From the NCBI RefSeq assembly GCF_002197845.1, contig NZ_NIDE01000004.1:930001-994000 (forward strand): DNA of 64,000 nucleotides, given 5' to 3'. Positions within the stretch are counted from its first letter, which is position 1; every line of letters begins with the position of its first letter. A program made the translations under genes and the position numbers. This DNA comes from Fimbriiglobus ruber (GTDB lineage: Bacteria > Planctomycetota > Planctomycetia > Gemmatales > Gemmataceae). A model generated the notes under the pieces. It was not told the DNA's origin and made no database searches. It saw only the letters and a list, made by a program, of their open reading frames with translations. Shown one piece after another: positions 5,421-17,598 of the stretch.

Positions 5421-5529
5421 CTCTATTTGTAGCTTTCCATTTTCTGCACCGAGGTATCGGTCGGATGATCGGACGCGGTTCGTTTTTCGATCGGCCATCG
5501 CTTTGGCCGATGGCGTCAAGGTTGATAGG

Positions 5530-5874
5530 GGTAGGGAAGACCGATTGGTTTCGATCTCCCCTCCCTCCGAACCGTACGGGCGGGTCTCCCGCATACGGCT
5601 CTCCAGTCGGTGGTCTGACCCACAAGGAGATTGACAGGCCAAACGATGGGCCACTTCCAGGCGGAAGCGCCCCTAGCTCCGCAAAGTACGCGTTCGGATA
5701 CCAAACGCCTCCCCTGACACCCTCGTCGAGGGCCGTCAACATCCGCTCGGTCCACTCCGCCAGTTCCACCCGCAACCAACGGTTGCGGGCCTCTCCGCCT
5801 TGCTTAGCCGTTACCGGCACTAACGACGGGTTGCGTTCCGGCTGTCTGGGCATTGCGTCTCCACCTTCCTGCAT
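5530..5874 (-). pseudogene. group II intron reverse transcriptase/maturase, large internal deletion
   Basis: The frame from ATG 5874 opens with a typical maturase N-terminus: MPRQPERNPSLVPVTAKQGG, then EWTERMLTALDEGVRGGVW. It jumps after about 60 residues straight to a C-terminal segment (YPNAYFAELG, then PTGEPYAGDPPVRFGGRGDR). The whole palm/fingers region with the YADD active site, the maturase domain X and the endonuclease are missing. The join is in frame, so a short fused peptide could still be made, but it cannot be a functional enzyme. The assignment rests on recalled resemblance to intron-encoded proteins of Gemmata-like genomes. Confidence 0.78.
5569..5601 (-). ncRNA. group II intron domain V
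   Basis: On the minus strand this 33-base segment reads GAGCCGTATGCGGGAGACCC followed by GCCCGTACGGTTC. It is a hairpin with the AGC catalytic triad in the lower stem, a two-base bulge region and a GNRA-like cap, as in bacterial introns. It is the most conserved part of the ribozyme and the main reason for calling the element a group II intron. Confidence 0.88.
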
Positions 5875-12982: not shown

Positions 12983-14050
12983 ATGTCCCGGTCCGATGAT
13001 ATGACGCTCCCGGTCGGCCGCGGGTTCCGAATGCCGGCAGAATGGGAGCCGCACCGGGGAACCTGGCTCGCGTGGCCGCACCGCCGGTCGGACTGGCCGG
13101 GTAAATTCGCCCCGATCCCCTGGGTGTACGGCGAGATCGCCCGCACCCTCGCCCGGCACGAAAACGTGAACGTCCTGGTCCGGGACGCCGAACAGCGGGC
13201 GGCCGCGCGGAAGGTTCTGGTCGCCGTGGGCGCGGACCGCGAGCGCGTCCGCTTTTACAAATGCCCGAACGACAGGTCCTGGGTGCGTGACTCCGGCCCC
13301 ATCTTCGTGACCGCGGCCGGGGGGGAACGGGCCGTCCTGGACTGGCACTTCAACGCCTGGGCCAAATACCCGGACTGGACGCGGGACGACAAAATCCCCG
13401 CCGTCGTCGCCGCGGACCGCGGGCTCCCGTCGTGGCAGCCCCGCTTTCGGAACTGGCGGGTCGTGCTGGAAGGGGGCAGCATCGACGTGAACGGGCAAGG
13501 GTTGATGCTGACGACCGAGGAATGCCTGCTCAGCACCGTCCAGCAGCGCAACCCGCCGTTCGATCGCGCGGATTACGAACAGGTCTTTGCCGACTATCTG
13601 GGTGTGAAAAAAGTCCTCTGGCTCGACCGCGGGGTCGTCGGCGACGACACCCACGGGCACGTCGATGACCTCGCGCGGTTCGTGAACGCCCGCACGGTGG
13701 TCGCCGTGGCCGAGGCGAACGAGGCGGACGAGAATTACCAACCCCTCCGCGACAACCTCGACCGACTCGCGGCCATGACGGACCTGGACGGTCGGCGGCT
13801 GGACGTGGTCACGCTGCCGATGCCCGCGCCGATCGTGTTCCGCGGCACCCGGCTCCCGGCGAGCTACGCGAACTTCTACATCGCGAACGGGGTCGTAATC
13901 GTGCCCACGTTCAACGACCCGGCCGACCGCGTCGCCCTCGGCACGCTCGCCGACCTGTTCCCGGACCGGGAAGTCGTGGGCATCCACTGTGTCGATCTAG
14001 TCTGGGGGCTCGGCACGCTTCACTGCATGACGCAACAAGAGCCGGTGTAG
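12983..14050 (+). CDS. aguA: agmatine deiminase family protein
   Basis: A 355-residue guanidino-group-modifying enzyme that converts agmatine to N-carbamoylputrescine plus ammonia on the route from arginine to putrescine. The family landmarks appear in order: MPAEWEPHRGTWLAWPH, NDRSWVRDSGPIFV, LEGGSIDVNGQG, GDDTHGHVDDLARFV and the C-terminal nucleophile Cys in GTLHCMTQQEP. The usual GGGNIHC is changed to LGTLHC, but the Cys is kept. No other polyamine gene is adjacent. Its stop codon touches the left arm of the 14050-14475 repeat element, so that element's first hairpins form the 3' end of its mRNA. Confidence 0.92.
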   Translation: MSRSDDMTLPVGRGFRMPAEWEPHRGTWLAWPHRRSDWPGKFAPIPWVYGEIARTLARHENVNVLVRDAEQRAAARKVLVAVGADRERVRFYKCPNDRSWVRDSGPIFVTAAGGERAVLDWHFNAWAKYPDWTRDDKIPAVVAADRGLPSWQPRFRNWRVVLEGGSIDVNGQGLMLTTEECLLSTVQQRNPPFDRADYEQVFADYLGVKKVLWLDRGVVGDDTHGHVDDLARFVNARTVVAVAEANEADENYQPLRDNLDRLAAMTDLDGRRLDVVTLPMPAPIVFRGTRLPASYANFYIANGVVIVPTFNDPADRVALGTLADLFPDREVVGIHCVDLVWGLGTLHCMTQQEPV

Positions 14051-14475
14051 TGGAGTCTTGGGGCTCTGCCCCAAACCCCGCTGGAGGGCCGTGAGCCCTC
14101 CAGACCTCCCGCTTGCTCCCGATCAGAGGGTCGATCCCAAAGCGGATCGACCCTCTGATCGGGAGCAGTAGCCTTTGTTGCCCACGGCAGGCGGAATCTG
14201 CCTCGCCCCGGCGCCTGACAGAGAGGCCATGTAAGAGGGTAGGCTATCAGTGTCGAAAATCGGTCATGTCCCCACCGTCTACTGCAGCACCTGAAGCGGC
14301 ATGCTTTGCGAACGCCCGGAGCGAGGTAAAGCGCTCGCGCCGAGGGCAGCAAGGACCACCGCGAGCGGCCCGGAGGTGATCCGCTTTGGGATCACCTCCG
14401 GGCCGGGAGCAGAGGGGAGGTCTGGAGGGCTCACGGCCCTCCAGCGGGGTTTGGGGCAGAGCCCCAAGACTCCAC
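14050..14475. repeat. 426-bp element with perfect 61-bp inverted termini and nested hairpins
   Basis: The arms 14050-14110 and 14415-14475 are exact reverse complements. Each holds two smaller palindromes of its own (GGGGCTCTGCCCC and CTGGAGGGCCGTGAGCCCTC plus CAG). Just inside each arm is a further hairpin (about 14118-14162 and 14370-14405) with the shared core GATCCCAAAGCGGATC, but with different stems that still pair (ATCAGAGGGTC with GACCCTCTGAT; GCCCGGAGGT with ACCTCCGGGC). The middle 200 bases code for nothing recognisable. The structure suggests a non-autonomous mobile element or a large REP/BIME-like unit. No target duplication was identified with confidence. Confidence 0.88.
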
Positions 14476-14574
14476 CCCAATCCCCGAATTCACGCTGGGA
14501 AATCGCGCCGCGCCTCGGGTATGATTCACCCCGGACTCGTGGCCCACCTCATAGCCGACTCACGGTGCGACTCG

Positions 14575-17500
14575 ATGACACGATTACTCTCTCGCCCGGC
14601 CGGGGCCGCGCTGGCGGCCGGGGCCGCCGTTGTGTTCGTCGCCTTCGTCGCGGTCCGCCCCGCCGCAAGTCGGCCGGAATCTGCGAAGCCATCGGCCCGC
14701 CAGCCGTGGACGACGTCGAAACTCGTCGGGTCGCCGGAACTGCCGCCGCCGTACAAGACGGTGAACGCGTTCCCGAACATCAAACTGGAACACCCGCTCC
14801 TGCTCGTCTCGGCCCCGGGCTCGGACCGACTGTTCGTCGCCGAGCAGGCGGGCAAGATCTTCTCGTTCAAGAACGACCCGGGCGCGAAAGCCGAACTGTT
14901 CTTCGACACCGCGAAGGAAATCCGCACCCTGAACAAGACGCCCGGGGCGAACGCCCTCGAATTCGTTTACGGGTTGGTGTTTCACCCGCAGTTCGAAAAG
15001 AACCGCTACTGCTTCGTCTGCTACACCGTCCAGACGAGCGGGAAGCCGAACCTCGCCGAGGGCACCCGCGTCTCCCGGTTCACGGTGACGAACACCGACC
15101 CGCCGCGGCTCGACCCGGCCAGCGAGGAAATCGTCTTCACCTTCCTCCAGGGCGGCCACAACGGCGGCGACCTGCACTTCGGCAACGACGGCTACCTGTA
15201 CATCTCCACCGGCGACGGGGCCGGCCCCAACCCGCCCGACCCGCTGCACACGGGCCAGGACATCACCGACCTGCTCTCCTCGATCCTGCGGATCGACGTG
15301 GACCACAAGGACGCCGGCAAGAGCTACGGTGTGCCGAAGGACAACCCGTTCATCGGGCTGAAAATTGGCGACAAGGAGGCGCGGCCCGAGATCTGGGCCT
15401 TCGGGCTCCGTAACCCCTGGCGGATGAGCTTCGACCGCCCGACCGGCGACCTGTGGGTCGGCGACGTCGGGTGGGAACTGTGGGAGATGATCCACAAGAT
15501 CGAGAAGGGCGGCAACTACGGTTGGAGCATCCTCGAAGCCCGGCAGCCGGTCCACGTGAACGATAAGCCGGGGCCGGGGCCGTTCCGCCCGCCGGTCGTC
15601 GAACTTCCGCACACGGCCGCCGCGAGCATCACCGGCGGGTACGTCTACCACGGGAAAAAGTTCCCCGACCTCGTGGGGGCGTACATCTTCGGCGACTGGG
15701 AGACCCGCCGCATCTGGGCCGCCCGGTTCGACGGCACCCGCGTCACGTCCATGCCGGAAATCACCGTCCCGAAGTTGCGCGTCGTCGCGTTCGGCCAGGA
15801 CCGCGCGGGCGAGCTGTACGTGGTCGACTACGACAGCGGGACGATTCACACCTTCGCCAAAAACGACGACCCGGGCTACGACCCGACCAAATTCCCGAAG
15901 ACTCTGGGGGCGACGGGTCTGTTCGCCTCCGTGAAGGACCACGCGCCGGCCGTGGGCGTCTACCCGTTCGAGGTGACCGCCCACCAGTGGCAGGACTACG
16001 CGACCACCGAACACTTCATCGCGCTACCCGGCGATTCGGTCGTCAAAGATTTCGAGGAAAAGCAATCACTTCCGGGGAGCGTGGACTGGCACAAATTCAA
16101 GTTCGCTTTCCCCCAGAACGCCGCCCTCGTCAAAACGATTTCCCTCGAAACCGAACGCGGGAATCCGGCGTCCCGGCGGCGGGTGGAGACGCAAGTCTTG
16201 CACTTCGACGGCGAGGACTGGCACGGCTACAGCTACCAGTGGCGGGACGACCAATCCGAGGCGGACCTCGTTCCAGCGGAGGGCGCGGAGAAAGAACTGA
16301 CCGTGGCCGATCCCGCCTTCGGAGCCGGGAAGCGCGAGCAGGTCTGGACGTTCCACAGCCGGGCCCAGTGCCTCCAGTGCCACAGCGCCTGGTCCGAATA
16401 CGCCCTCGGGTTCAGCGTCGAACAGCTCAATCGGGATGTCGTCATGCCGAGCGGGTCGAAGAACCAGCTCACCTGGCTGGGCGAGTTCGGCCTGACCCAA
16501 CGGATCGGGAAGAACAACAAGCCAGAGGCGCCCTACACCCCGAACGAGGCGACCAAACAGCCGCACGTGGTCGATCCGACCGACATGAAGGCGCCACTGG
16601 TCGACCGGGCGCGAGCCTACCTCCACACCAACTGCGGCCACTGCCACCAGAACGGCGGCGGGGGTGGCGCGGTCACGTTCGAACTCCACCGCAATTCCGA
16701 CCTCAAGCAAAAGAGCCTGTGGGCGACACCAACCCGAGGCAACTTCGACCTGCCGGACTTGAAGGTGGTCGCGCCGGGCGACCCGGCTCACAGCGCACTC
16801 TACTTCCGCATGGCCAAGTTCGGCCGGGGTCGGATGCCGCAACTCGGGACAGACCTGGTCGACCCGGTCGGCGTCGCGCTCATCGCCGCCTGGATCGAGT
16901 CACTGAAGCCGGGTGACAAGTCCGCGCCGGTCGATCTGGCCAAGACAACGCCCGACGCCATCGCGAAGCACCTCGCGGCCGTCGCGTCCGCCGAGGGCGT
17001 TGCCCGCGCGGTCGCCCACCCGGACTGTCCGCCGGACGCGCGCAAGCAGGTGTGGGCCGCGGCCGCGAAGTTGCCCGAAGGGAACGTCCGCGATTTGTTC
17101 GACGGCTACCTGCCCCGCGACGGCCAGGAGCGCAAGCTCGGCCAGAACCCGCGCCCGCGGGCGATCCTCTCCCGGACCGGCGACGCGGGCCGGGGCAAGG
17201 AGCTGTTCCAGGCCCAAAAGACGCAGTGCATCACCTGCCACAAGATCGACGGGCAGGGCAACGAGGTCGGCCCTGATTTGTCCGCGATCGCCAAGACGCG
17301 GTCCCGCGAGGATCTGCTCGAAAGCATCCTCGACCCGTCCCGCCGGGTCGAACCGCAGTGGACGGCCTACGTGCTGAAAACCCACGACGGTCGCGCGGTG
17401 ACGGGCTTACTCGTTCGCAAGGACGGCAAAGAGGTGGTGCTGAGGGACGCCCAGAACAAGGAGACGCACGTTGCGGCCGACAACGTGGAATCGCTGCGAC

Positions 17501-17598
17501 CGGCCCGTGACTCGCTGATGCCCGCGGGTCTGTTCGCCGACCTCACTGCGCAACAAGCCGCGGACCTGCTGGCATTCCTCGCGAACCGGAAGAATTGA
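14575..17598 (+). CDS. secreted glucose/sorbosone-dehydrogenase-like propeller fused to c-type cytochrome domains
   Basis: A 1007-residue exported protein, probably a periplasmic oxidoreductase. After a signal/anchor (LAAGAAVVFVAFVAV) comes a GSDH-type six-bladed propeller, about residues 60-450 (LFVAEQAGKIFSF, GGHNGGDLHFGNDGYLYIST, WAFGLRNPWRMSFDRPTGDL). A middle region with haem sites CLQCH and CGHCH follows. The C-terminal cytochrome domain has CITCHK and the associated ILDPSRRVEPQW segment typical of planctomycete haem-binding families. Three CxxCH motifs imply three haems. The propeller would oxidise a sugar or polyol and pass electrons to the haems; the cofactor and substrate are inferred. 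ATG 14575 is chosen because the signal peptide starts there; ATG 14521 is possible. Confidence 0.88.
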   Translation: MTRLLSRPAGAALAAGAAVVFVAFVAVRPAASRPESAKPSARQPWTTSKLVGSPELPPPYKTVNAFPNIKLEHPLLLVSAPGSDRLFVAEQAGKIFSFKNDPGAKAELFFDTAKEIRTLNKTPGANALEFVYGLVFHPQFEKNRYCFVCYTVQTSGKPNLAEGTRVSRFTVTNTDPPRLDPASEEIVFTFLQGGHNGGDLHFGNDGYLYISTGDGAGPNPPDPLHTGQDITDLLSSILRIDVDHKDAGKSYGVPKDNPFIGLKIGDKEARPEIWAFGLRNPWRMSFDRPTGDLWVGDVGWELWEMIHKIEKGGNYGWSILEARQPVHVNDKPGPGPFRPPVVELPHTAAASITGGYVYHGKKFPDLVGAYIFGDWETRRIWAARFDGTRVTSMPEITVPKLRVVAFGQDRAGELYVVDYDSGTIHTFAKNDDPGYDPTKFPKTLGATGLFASVKDHAPAVGVYPFEVTAHQWQDYATTEHFIALPGDSVVKDFEEKQSLPGSVDWHKFKFAFPQNAALVKTISLETERGNPASRRRVETQVLHFDGEDWHGYSYQWRDDQSEADLVPAEGAEKELTVADPAFGAGKREQVWTFHSRAQCLQCHSAWSEYALGFSVEQLNRDVVMPSGSKNQLTWLGEFGLTQRIGKNNKPEAPYTPNEATKQPHVVDPTDMKAPLVDRARAYLHTNCGHCHQNGGGGGAVTFELHRNSDLKQKSLWATPTRGNFDLPDLKVVAPGDPAHSALYFRMAKFGRGRMPQLGTDLVDPVGVALIAAWIESLKPGDKSAPVDLAKTTPDAIAKHLAAVASAEGVARAVAHPDCPPDARKQVWAAAAKLPEGNVRDLFDGYLPRDGQERKLGQNPRPRAILSRTGDAGRGKELFQAQKTQCITCHKIDGQGNEVGPDLSAIAKTRSREDLLESILDPSRRVEPQWTAYVLKTHDGRAVTGLLVRKDGKEVVLRDAQNKETHVAADNVESLRPARDSLMPAGLFADLTAQQAADLLAFLANRKN

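Follow-up and report, generated by a model that had tools for sequence, protein, structure and literature searches.

What kind of sequence occupies the gap between the stop codon of aguA and the next gene in the planctomycete Fimbriiglobus ruber? The question arises from a window of 64,000 nucleotides (contig NZ_NIDE01000004.1, positions 930,001 to 994,000), in which a first-pass annotation had described a 426-bp element with perfect 61-bp inverted ends, two palindromes in each arm followed by a hairpin, and inner stems that differ between the two ends and nevertheless pair. This anatomy was borne out: the inverted repeat is exact over 61 bp, running inward from 14050 and 14475 (position 1 is the first letter of the window) with no outward extension, and amounts to 72 nt at 96% when mismatches are permitted. 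In each arm, the palindromes P1 (TTGGGGC-TCT-GCCCCAA) and P2 (CTGGAGGG-..-CCCTCCAG) and an inner hairpin were found, and the 16-mer GATCCCAAAGCGGATC is present at both ends. The element also starts on the aguA stop, as had been noted, since position 14050 is both the first base of the repeat and the last base of the TAG codon of an agmatine-deiminase-type ORF (Pfam PF04371 PAD_porph, E = 1.7e-119); it thus lies between that stop and a TATGAT hexamer upstream of the next gene (Table 1). In single-strand DNA folding, the copy outdid all of 100 dinucleotide shuffles (z = -19), so its structure is not due to chance. At the gathering score, no curated RNA family in an Rfam scan of the window matches the element, and the earlier impression that it is unlike standard IS or MITE sequences agrees with the absence of a match to any family that could be tested. 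The one Rfam match in the window at that score is a group II intron RNA at 5525-5603 on the minus strand.

Table 1. Features of the element and its neighbours in the window.
Feature	Position	Strand	Basis or remark
Left arm, inverted repeat (61 bp perfect)	14050..14110	+	
Palindrome P1, left	14058..14074	+	Sequence; conserved in family alignment
Palindrome P2, left	14081..14103	+	Stem variable among copies; loop region usually equal in both arms of a copy
Left inner hairpin, 24-bp stem, 6-nt loop CAAAGC	14114..14167	+	Over-extended past the usual 18-bp stem
Interior	14168..14365	.	Without called gene; varies among copies
Right inner hairpin, 17-bp stem, 6-nt loop GCTTTG (CAAAGC, tip inward)	14366..14405	+	
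Right arm, inverted repeat (61 bp perfect)	14415..14475	-	
Palindrome P2, right	14422..14444	-	
Palindrome P1, right	14451..14467	-	
-10-like hexamer TATGAT	14520..14525	+	Predicted; 44 bp past right tip, upstream of next gene; no good -35 by reading
Upstream gene aguA, agmatine deiminase type	12983..14050	+	Stop codon touches element
Downstream gene	14575..17598	+	ATG at 14575 is a reading by eye; start of codon-model caller is 14521

Whether this palindrome stands alone was answered by searches of the F. ruber assembly (12.36 Mb, 20 contigs). A DNA (blast) search, in which the best 40 of 78 candidate regions were scored, returned many copies, and 38 stretches were taken with flanks of about 400 bp and again with flanks of about 2-3 kb. 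A covariance model (R1) built from 69 ends gave at least 71 full ends at 83.7 bits or more, followed by three matches at 49.7 bits or less, among the best 150 of 12,651 first-look candidates, a selection in which diverged copies may be missed. By hand count, the 71 ends belong to 33 distinct copies with both ends, one duplicate, and three ends that stand alone (L037, L040, and L062), and the family is dispersed at about 36 places in this one planctomycete genome. The duplicate (L061) lies near a contig end and its flanks repeat those of L060; two fragments (L065 and L066) and a local duplication with a partial copy (L057/L142) were also found. Consequently, a unique palindrome or a chance structure is ruled out by the shuffles together with the further copies: the search for more copies that had been proposed at the outset yielded a family, and stem pairing is kept throughout it, the two points on which the first-pass annotation had staked its description.

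The core common to the copies is a nested palindrome, ordered as arm (P1 and P2), inner hairpin, interior, inner hairpin, and arm, with a length of about 280-440 bp in most copies and about 920 bp in two. Those two copies (L030, 623-1111; L031, interior) show an apparent passenger reading frame of about 150-160 aa between the inner hairpins, for which neither a Pfam family nor a relative was found in the case of L030. In the interior of another copy (L047, 603-680), a second, different long palindrome is present. It is by its core sequence and hairpins that the window copy belongs to the family.

Beyond this genome, the covariance model found no copy in 94 other genomes of Gemmataceae among 38 candidates scored per genome under a stricter filter, and a DNA search of 58 other relatives gave weak, apparently unrelated matches in two, namely a short hairpin after a gene and a match within a coding stretch. 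The exact arm pattern was not found in a wider collection of genome contigs. Among the genomes searched, the family is thus found by these sequence comparisons in F. ruber only; two further genomes from its genus are without it. The P1 motif occurs in 19 stretches of viral contigs, where the inner hairpin is absent from the letters read. The same arm plan (P1 TTGGGGCTCTGCCCCAA or close to it, ACCCCGC, a different P2 palindrome, and GACxCC) was seen in the viral contig loci L100, L106, L114, and L107, the first three of which lie on one 202-kb viral contig; this suggests that the plan may be a wider building block. In the literature, no non-coding palindromic element of this kind appeared among the top-ranked papers, and the arm strings led to no paper.

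The pairing of the stems raises the question of what keeps the palindromes intact. In the family alignment of 69 ends (duplicate left out), 98.9% of the cells in the three named helices pair, with 268 cells changed on both sides, and pairing drops to 32-56% when partners are slid by 1-3 columns; the further pair types are no higher than in shuffles, 495 of 500 of which reach the number. Within the inner 18-bp stem, 98.8% of cells pair, both-side changes occur at 12 of the 18 pairs, and one-sided G-T cells number zero. The inner-stem mismatches listed, when read tip inward, include seven A-C and no G-T, a strand asymmetry in small numbers. The 69 ends carry 46 distinct 5' stems, and in none of the 33 copies do the two arms have the same inner 5' stem.

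Other parts of the core behave differently from the inner stems. In 23 of 33 copies, versus 2.1 expected from between-copy pairing, the two arms carry identical loop regions of P2 (columns 36-43 of the alignment, counting the closing pair), most of whose bases have no partner within their hairpin; the spacer beside P2 is equal in 7 of 33 versus 2.5 expected. Moreover, an over-run palindrome is present in five of 69 ends (L067 left, L031 left, L053 left, the alpha end of L060, and L052 right), in which GGGAGC is found at the hairpin base where others read GCTCGC or close to it; in L060, the hairpin loop is reversed as well. The core is oriented one way relative to its flanks in 14 and the other way in 11 of 25 assignable copies, an orientation set by hand from the interior sequence for 15 of 34 copies. 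Homogenised arms and inverted spacers are expected from template switching between inverted repeats, according to the portions of two reports consulted (PMC8604942 and PMC8794818). Given that arms are homogenised and some palindromes over-run, repair by template switching together with conversion between arms fits the data as well as selection does, and makes perfect palindromes without it; in addition, the lack of any G-T cell in the 18-bp stem is a point against gradual compensation in an RNA of that strand. Of the initial claim of selection for structure rather than sequence, the covarying hairpins are therefore real and the selection is not established; selection for the stems remains compatible with the data.

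Several features became visible only across copies, namely flanks outside the core, putative target duplications, and a position upstream of predicted promoters. Fuller copies reach past the inverted repeat on both sides in the order B flank, core, A flank, in which the B flank reads GTCACCCCACAAAAACCGTCCACATGACCAGGCACCGG outward and the A flank ends ...CAGAGGGCAAGCCCCTC; 18 copies score for both flanks, and genome searches with either flank gave matches at known family loci only. Beside one copy (L044, also L129), a 45-bp unit consisting of part of the B flank and P1 stands in tandem. By reading, the A terminus is kept at twelve loci (duplicate L061 left out), and ten of these have, at the A end, a direct repeat that is found again past the B end. 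Of the ten repeats, seven are exact over 8-12 bp, three have one mismatch, and five are at least 10 bp long, as compared with a longest anchored match of 7 in 90 cross-copy pairings of the same ten copies; in L144, the repeat starts 2 bp past the usual terminus, and at the remaining two loci (L136 and L145) the A end is kept and no duplication was accepted. The B end is ragged, falling 48-74 nt from the tip in eight of nine rows (L136 rejected). The constancy of the A end is limited to the ten copies with duplications, and in copies without an A terminus that end varies too.

These direct repeats are probably target duplications. A terminal inverted repeat formed by A and B is ruled out for the ten copies, because 125 to 500 of 500 shuffles reach the score of their ends. 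Some direct repeat of at least 8 bp was found in 10 of the 22 other two-sided copies; in four loci (L119, L120, L121, and L124) a -10-like hexamer lies 33-35 bp past such a repeat on at least one side, an observation found by looking and given less weight. At the window copy, neither the A flank nor the B flank was detected, and there is no convincing duplication, the sole direct repeat of at least 8 bp lying more than 120 bp out on both sides; its presumed mobility is that of the family.

The surroundings of the copies were assessed with gene calls from a simple codon model written for this analysis. Nearly all copies are intergenic, with called genes overlapping the tip at L130, L145, and the fragment L151. 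With the duplicate left out, 22 of the 23 B sides point toward a called gene start, L128 (719 bp away), L142 (650 bp), L145 (overlapping the tip), and L144 (low-scoring) being weak calls among them; the B side of L117 has no called gene start within 708 bp. The A side faces a gene end in 14 cases and a gene start in eight (duplicate likewise left out). In the two-sided assessments, 31 of 33 have at least one side facing a gene start, the exceptions being L117 and the duplicate L146.

A more exact position emerges in the ten copies with accepted repeats. Eight of them (all except L133 and L135) have a -10-like hexamer 31-34 bp past the outer edge of the repeat when the B side is read, as compared with one of ten when the A side is read; with a null rate of 0.041, the binomial P is about 3e-10, at a threshold of 3.5 (the weakest of the eight scores 3.6) that was set, like the window of distances, after the pattern had been seen. 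The promoters are predicted with an E. coli -10 matrix, and the controls were drawn from the same loci for a pattern noticed before testing; in the random-window control, the observed mean was reached in 0 of 20,000. Likewise, the -35 matrix peaks at offset 9, corresponding to a 17-bp spacer, and TTG stands at offset 9 in four of ten copies versus a rate of 0.013 elsewhere. In most of the best-preserved copies, a predicted promoter thus follows the element, with its -35-like hexamer about 9 bp away and its -10-like hexamer about 32 bp away.

The reading that we prefer, with a probability of roughly 0.55, is a non-autonomous mobile element moved in trans by a promoter-steered transposase, likeliest of the Mutator-superfamily DDE class, with palindromes kept by template switching. 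The transposase, steered by the promoter, would insert the element just upstream of the -35; template switching and arm-to-arm conversion would be the main processes that keep the palindromes perfect, and would also invert the core relative to its flanks. The enzyme would be of the TnGBS/ISLre2/ISKra4 kind, an identity that we infer from the promoter-upstream insertion of some such transposases and from the abundance of ISKra4-like genes in this genome.

Among known systems, the way in which the family is placed recalls TnGBS/ISLre2 and some ISKra4 transposases, whose insertion is targeted to promoters. In the sections consulted of Guerillot et al. (2014, PMC3942029), TnGBS and ISLre2 elements (p-MULT 3) are reported to insert 15-17 bp upstream of the -35 in one orientation, a habit that is called unusual among prokaryotic transposases; 13 elements of the ISKra4 group (p-MULT 4), which is recorded in Planctomycetes, lie at promoters that flank them on both sides, an arrangement attributed by the authors to nearly identical end repeats; and p-MULT duplications are of 8 or 9 bp, with terminal repeats of 18-39 bp. 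The word "mite" gave no match in the available text of that paper. The present family shares with p-MULT 3 the oriented, fixed distance upstream of a housekeeping-type -35 (about 17-21 bp here when measured from the B end) and direct repeats at its ends; it differs in that it encodes no transposase, has no terminal repeat, and carries putative duplications of 8-12 bp. With ISKra4 it has in common promoter-upstream members and, in two resident families, a near-constant -10 distance, whereas those elements have promoters on both sides and near-perfect end repeats, and the present family has a single orientation. Similarly, it resembles a MITE in being short, mostly non-coding, inverted-repeat, intergenic, bordered by direct repeats, and devoid of its own transposase, but its inverted repeat is internal to the A and B flanks, its nested palindromes have independently diverging stems, and no parent IS was found. 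Eukaryotic Foldback elements have long inverted repeats built of smaller repeats and a link to Mutator; the present family, in contrast, is bacterial and tiny, with flanks outside the inverted repeat.

A mobilising enzyme was sought in the same genome. The ISKra4 model gave 105 matches, 15 of them over the curated cut-off; several families with near-identical copies are present among them (L184-L233 and others), and at two fetched loci a second, related copy adjoins the first. As a positive control, five of six copies of one resident ISKra4 family have a -10-like hexamer at 49-52 bp, always counted from the same IS end, and five of nine copies of a second have it 50-52 bp from one end, the distance pattern being unclear in three smaller families. 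The resident duplications are mostly about 9 bp after trimming of bases common with the IS end (2 of 24 copies lack a duplication), and the -10 lies about 41 bp past the duplication, as compared with 32 in the element family. The five resident families read begin GGGTG, GGGGGTG, GGTTGAAG, or similar, unlike A or B. An ISKra4 parent was rejected after 50 loci of the 105 matches gave nothing beyond 12-16-nt matches at E 0.14 or worse, in a comparison that could miss short imperfect common ends, and an IS with a PF00872-like transposase (L176-L179) was rejected as its ends do not match A or B. PF06782, which we take to be linked to ISLre2, gave 12 weak matches, all within the ISKra4 matches. Hence, the flank searches, the 50 of 105 ISKra4 loci, and the PF00872-like IS gave no transposase or IS sharing the A or B ends; lacking a transposase, a terminal repeat, and a counterpart among the IS looked at, the family is not filed as a member of p-MULT 3 or ISKra4. 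Against movement by a Mutator-type transposase stand L133 and L135, which break the promoter rule, the duplications of 10-12 bp, which exceed 8-9 bp, and the spacing difference of about 9 bp from the resident ISKra4 family, as well as the ragged B end and the lack of the terminal inverted repeat that p-MULT elements possess; nor did an empty site come to light.

Alternatively, the family may be a promoter-homing element moved by something other than a Mutator-type DDE transposase. In this case, the nested palindromic arms themselves, in the form of single-stranded or cruciform DNA or of RNA, would be what the transposition machinery recognises; it would carry along ragged flanking DNA, and RNA polymerase bound at a promoter would guide it to a point some 9 bp upstream of the -35. 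We regard this as a tentative option and a rather unlikely one.

Movement through RNA, in a SINE-like manner, is in our view unlikely. An element transcript would be reverse transcribed at a nicked target by a reverse transcriptase of group II intron type, or another, acting in trans; the ten copies with a near-constant A end, a ragged B end, 8-12-bp duplications, and no terminal inverted repeat would suit it, as would the 16 RVT_1 matches in the genome and the group II intron RNA in the window. We know of no bacterial retroelement with fixed promoter spacing and orientation. Such spacing is documented for DDE transposases (PMC3942029, in the sections consulted), and two further observations speak against an RNA route: the A end varies in copies without an A terminus, and no copy was found in which the A flank is present and the B side of the core is missing, the A-flank search having returned known loci only.

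Another explanation is that the family is a host-functional structure (a terminator, insulator, or RNA element) under selection upstream of promoters, the covariation then reflecting selection on stems. The near-complete pairing over diverged copies, the strong structure, and the almost exclusively intergenic location, often between a gene end and a gene start, accord with this. However, the direct repeats at the ends and the oriented, fixed-distance positions look like insertion marks, the 94 relatives gave nothing among their 38 candidates scored each, the arm-to-arm loop matching and over-run palindromes are not needed for a function, and the inner stem has no G-T intermediates. This explanation is accordingly considered improbable.

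More doubtful still, and very unlikely in our estimation, is a REP/REPIN-like element moved by a Y1 (RAYT) transposase. Target duplications are not known from Y1 transposition. The genome has three Y1_Tnp genes, and palindromic intergenic repeats in opposite pairs are what such elements present; moreover, in 28 of 69 ends P1 is directly preceded by CGTC, the tag of CGTC-tagged REPs (PMC3733652), although the consulted passage of that paper lists CGTC repeats in five phyla, with Planctomycetes not among them. Also, the element is about ten times longer, with end direct repeats and promoter positioning. Matches to the family at the three Y1 loci are no more than short and weak, and none of these loci is flanked by it, so a RAYT was ruled out as driver on the ground that these loci lack family repeats. 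Two of the three genes (L154 and L155) are flanked by large inverted repeat arrays of their own, different from the element family. Finally, that the direct repeats and promoter spacing reflect chance or a bias in which insertions survive is scarcely credible: short intergenic gaps do put surviving insertions near promoters, and the pattern was found by looking, with thresholds set afterwards, but the cross-copy, A-side, and other-window controls do not reproduce it, and survival alone gives neither a 4-bp window nor a single orientation.

What occupies the gap behind aguA thus looks like a known kind of sequence, a non-autonomous transposable element, in a new form, a palindromic non-coding build placed at predicted promoters. 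If movement by a promoter-steered transposase is the right reading, the family would mark promoters in a little-studied phylum and would be a natural record of how a transposase finds them. Moreover, 69 naturally diverged hairpins in one genome offer a test of covariation by selection versus template switching, and the set bears on the practice of reading covariation as proof of a functional RNA.
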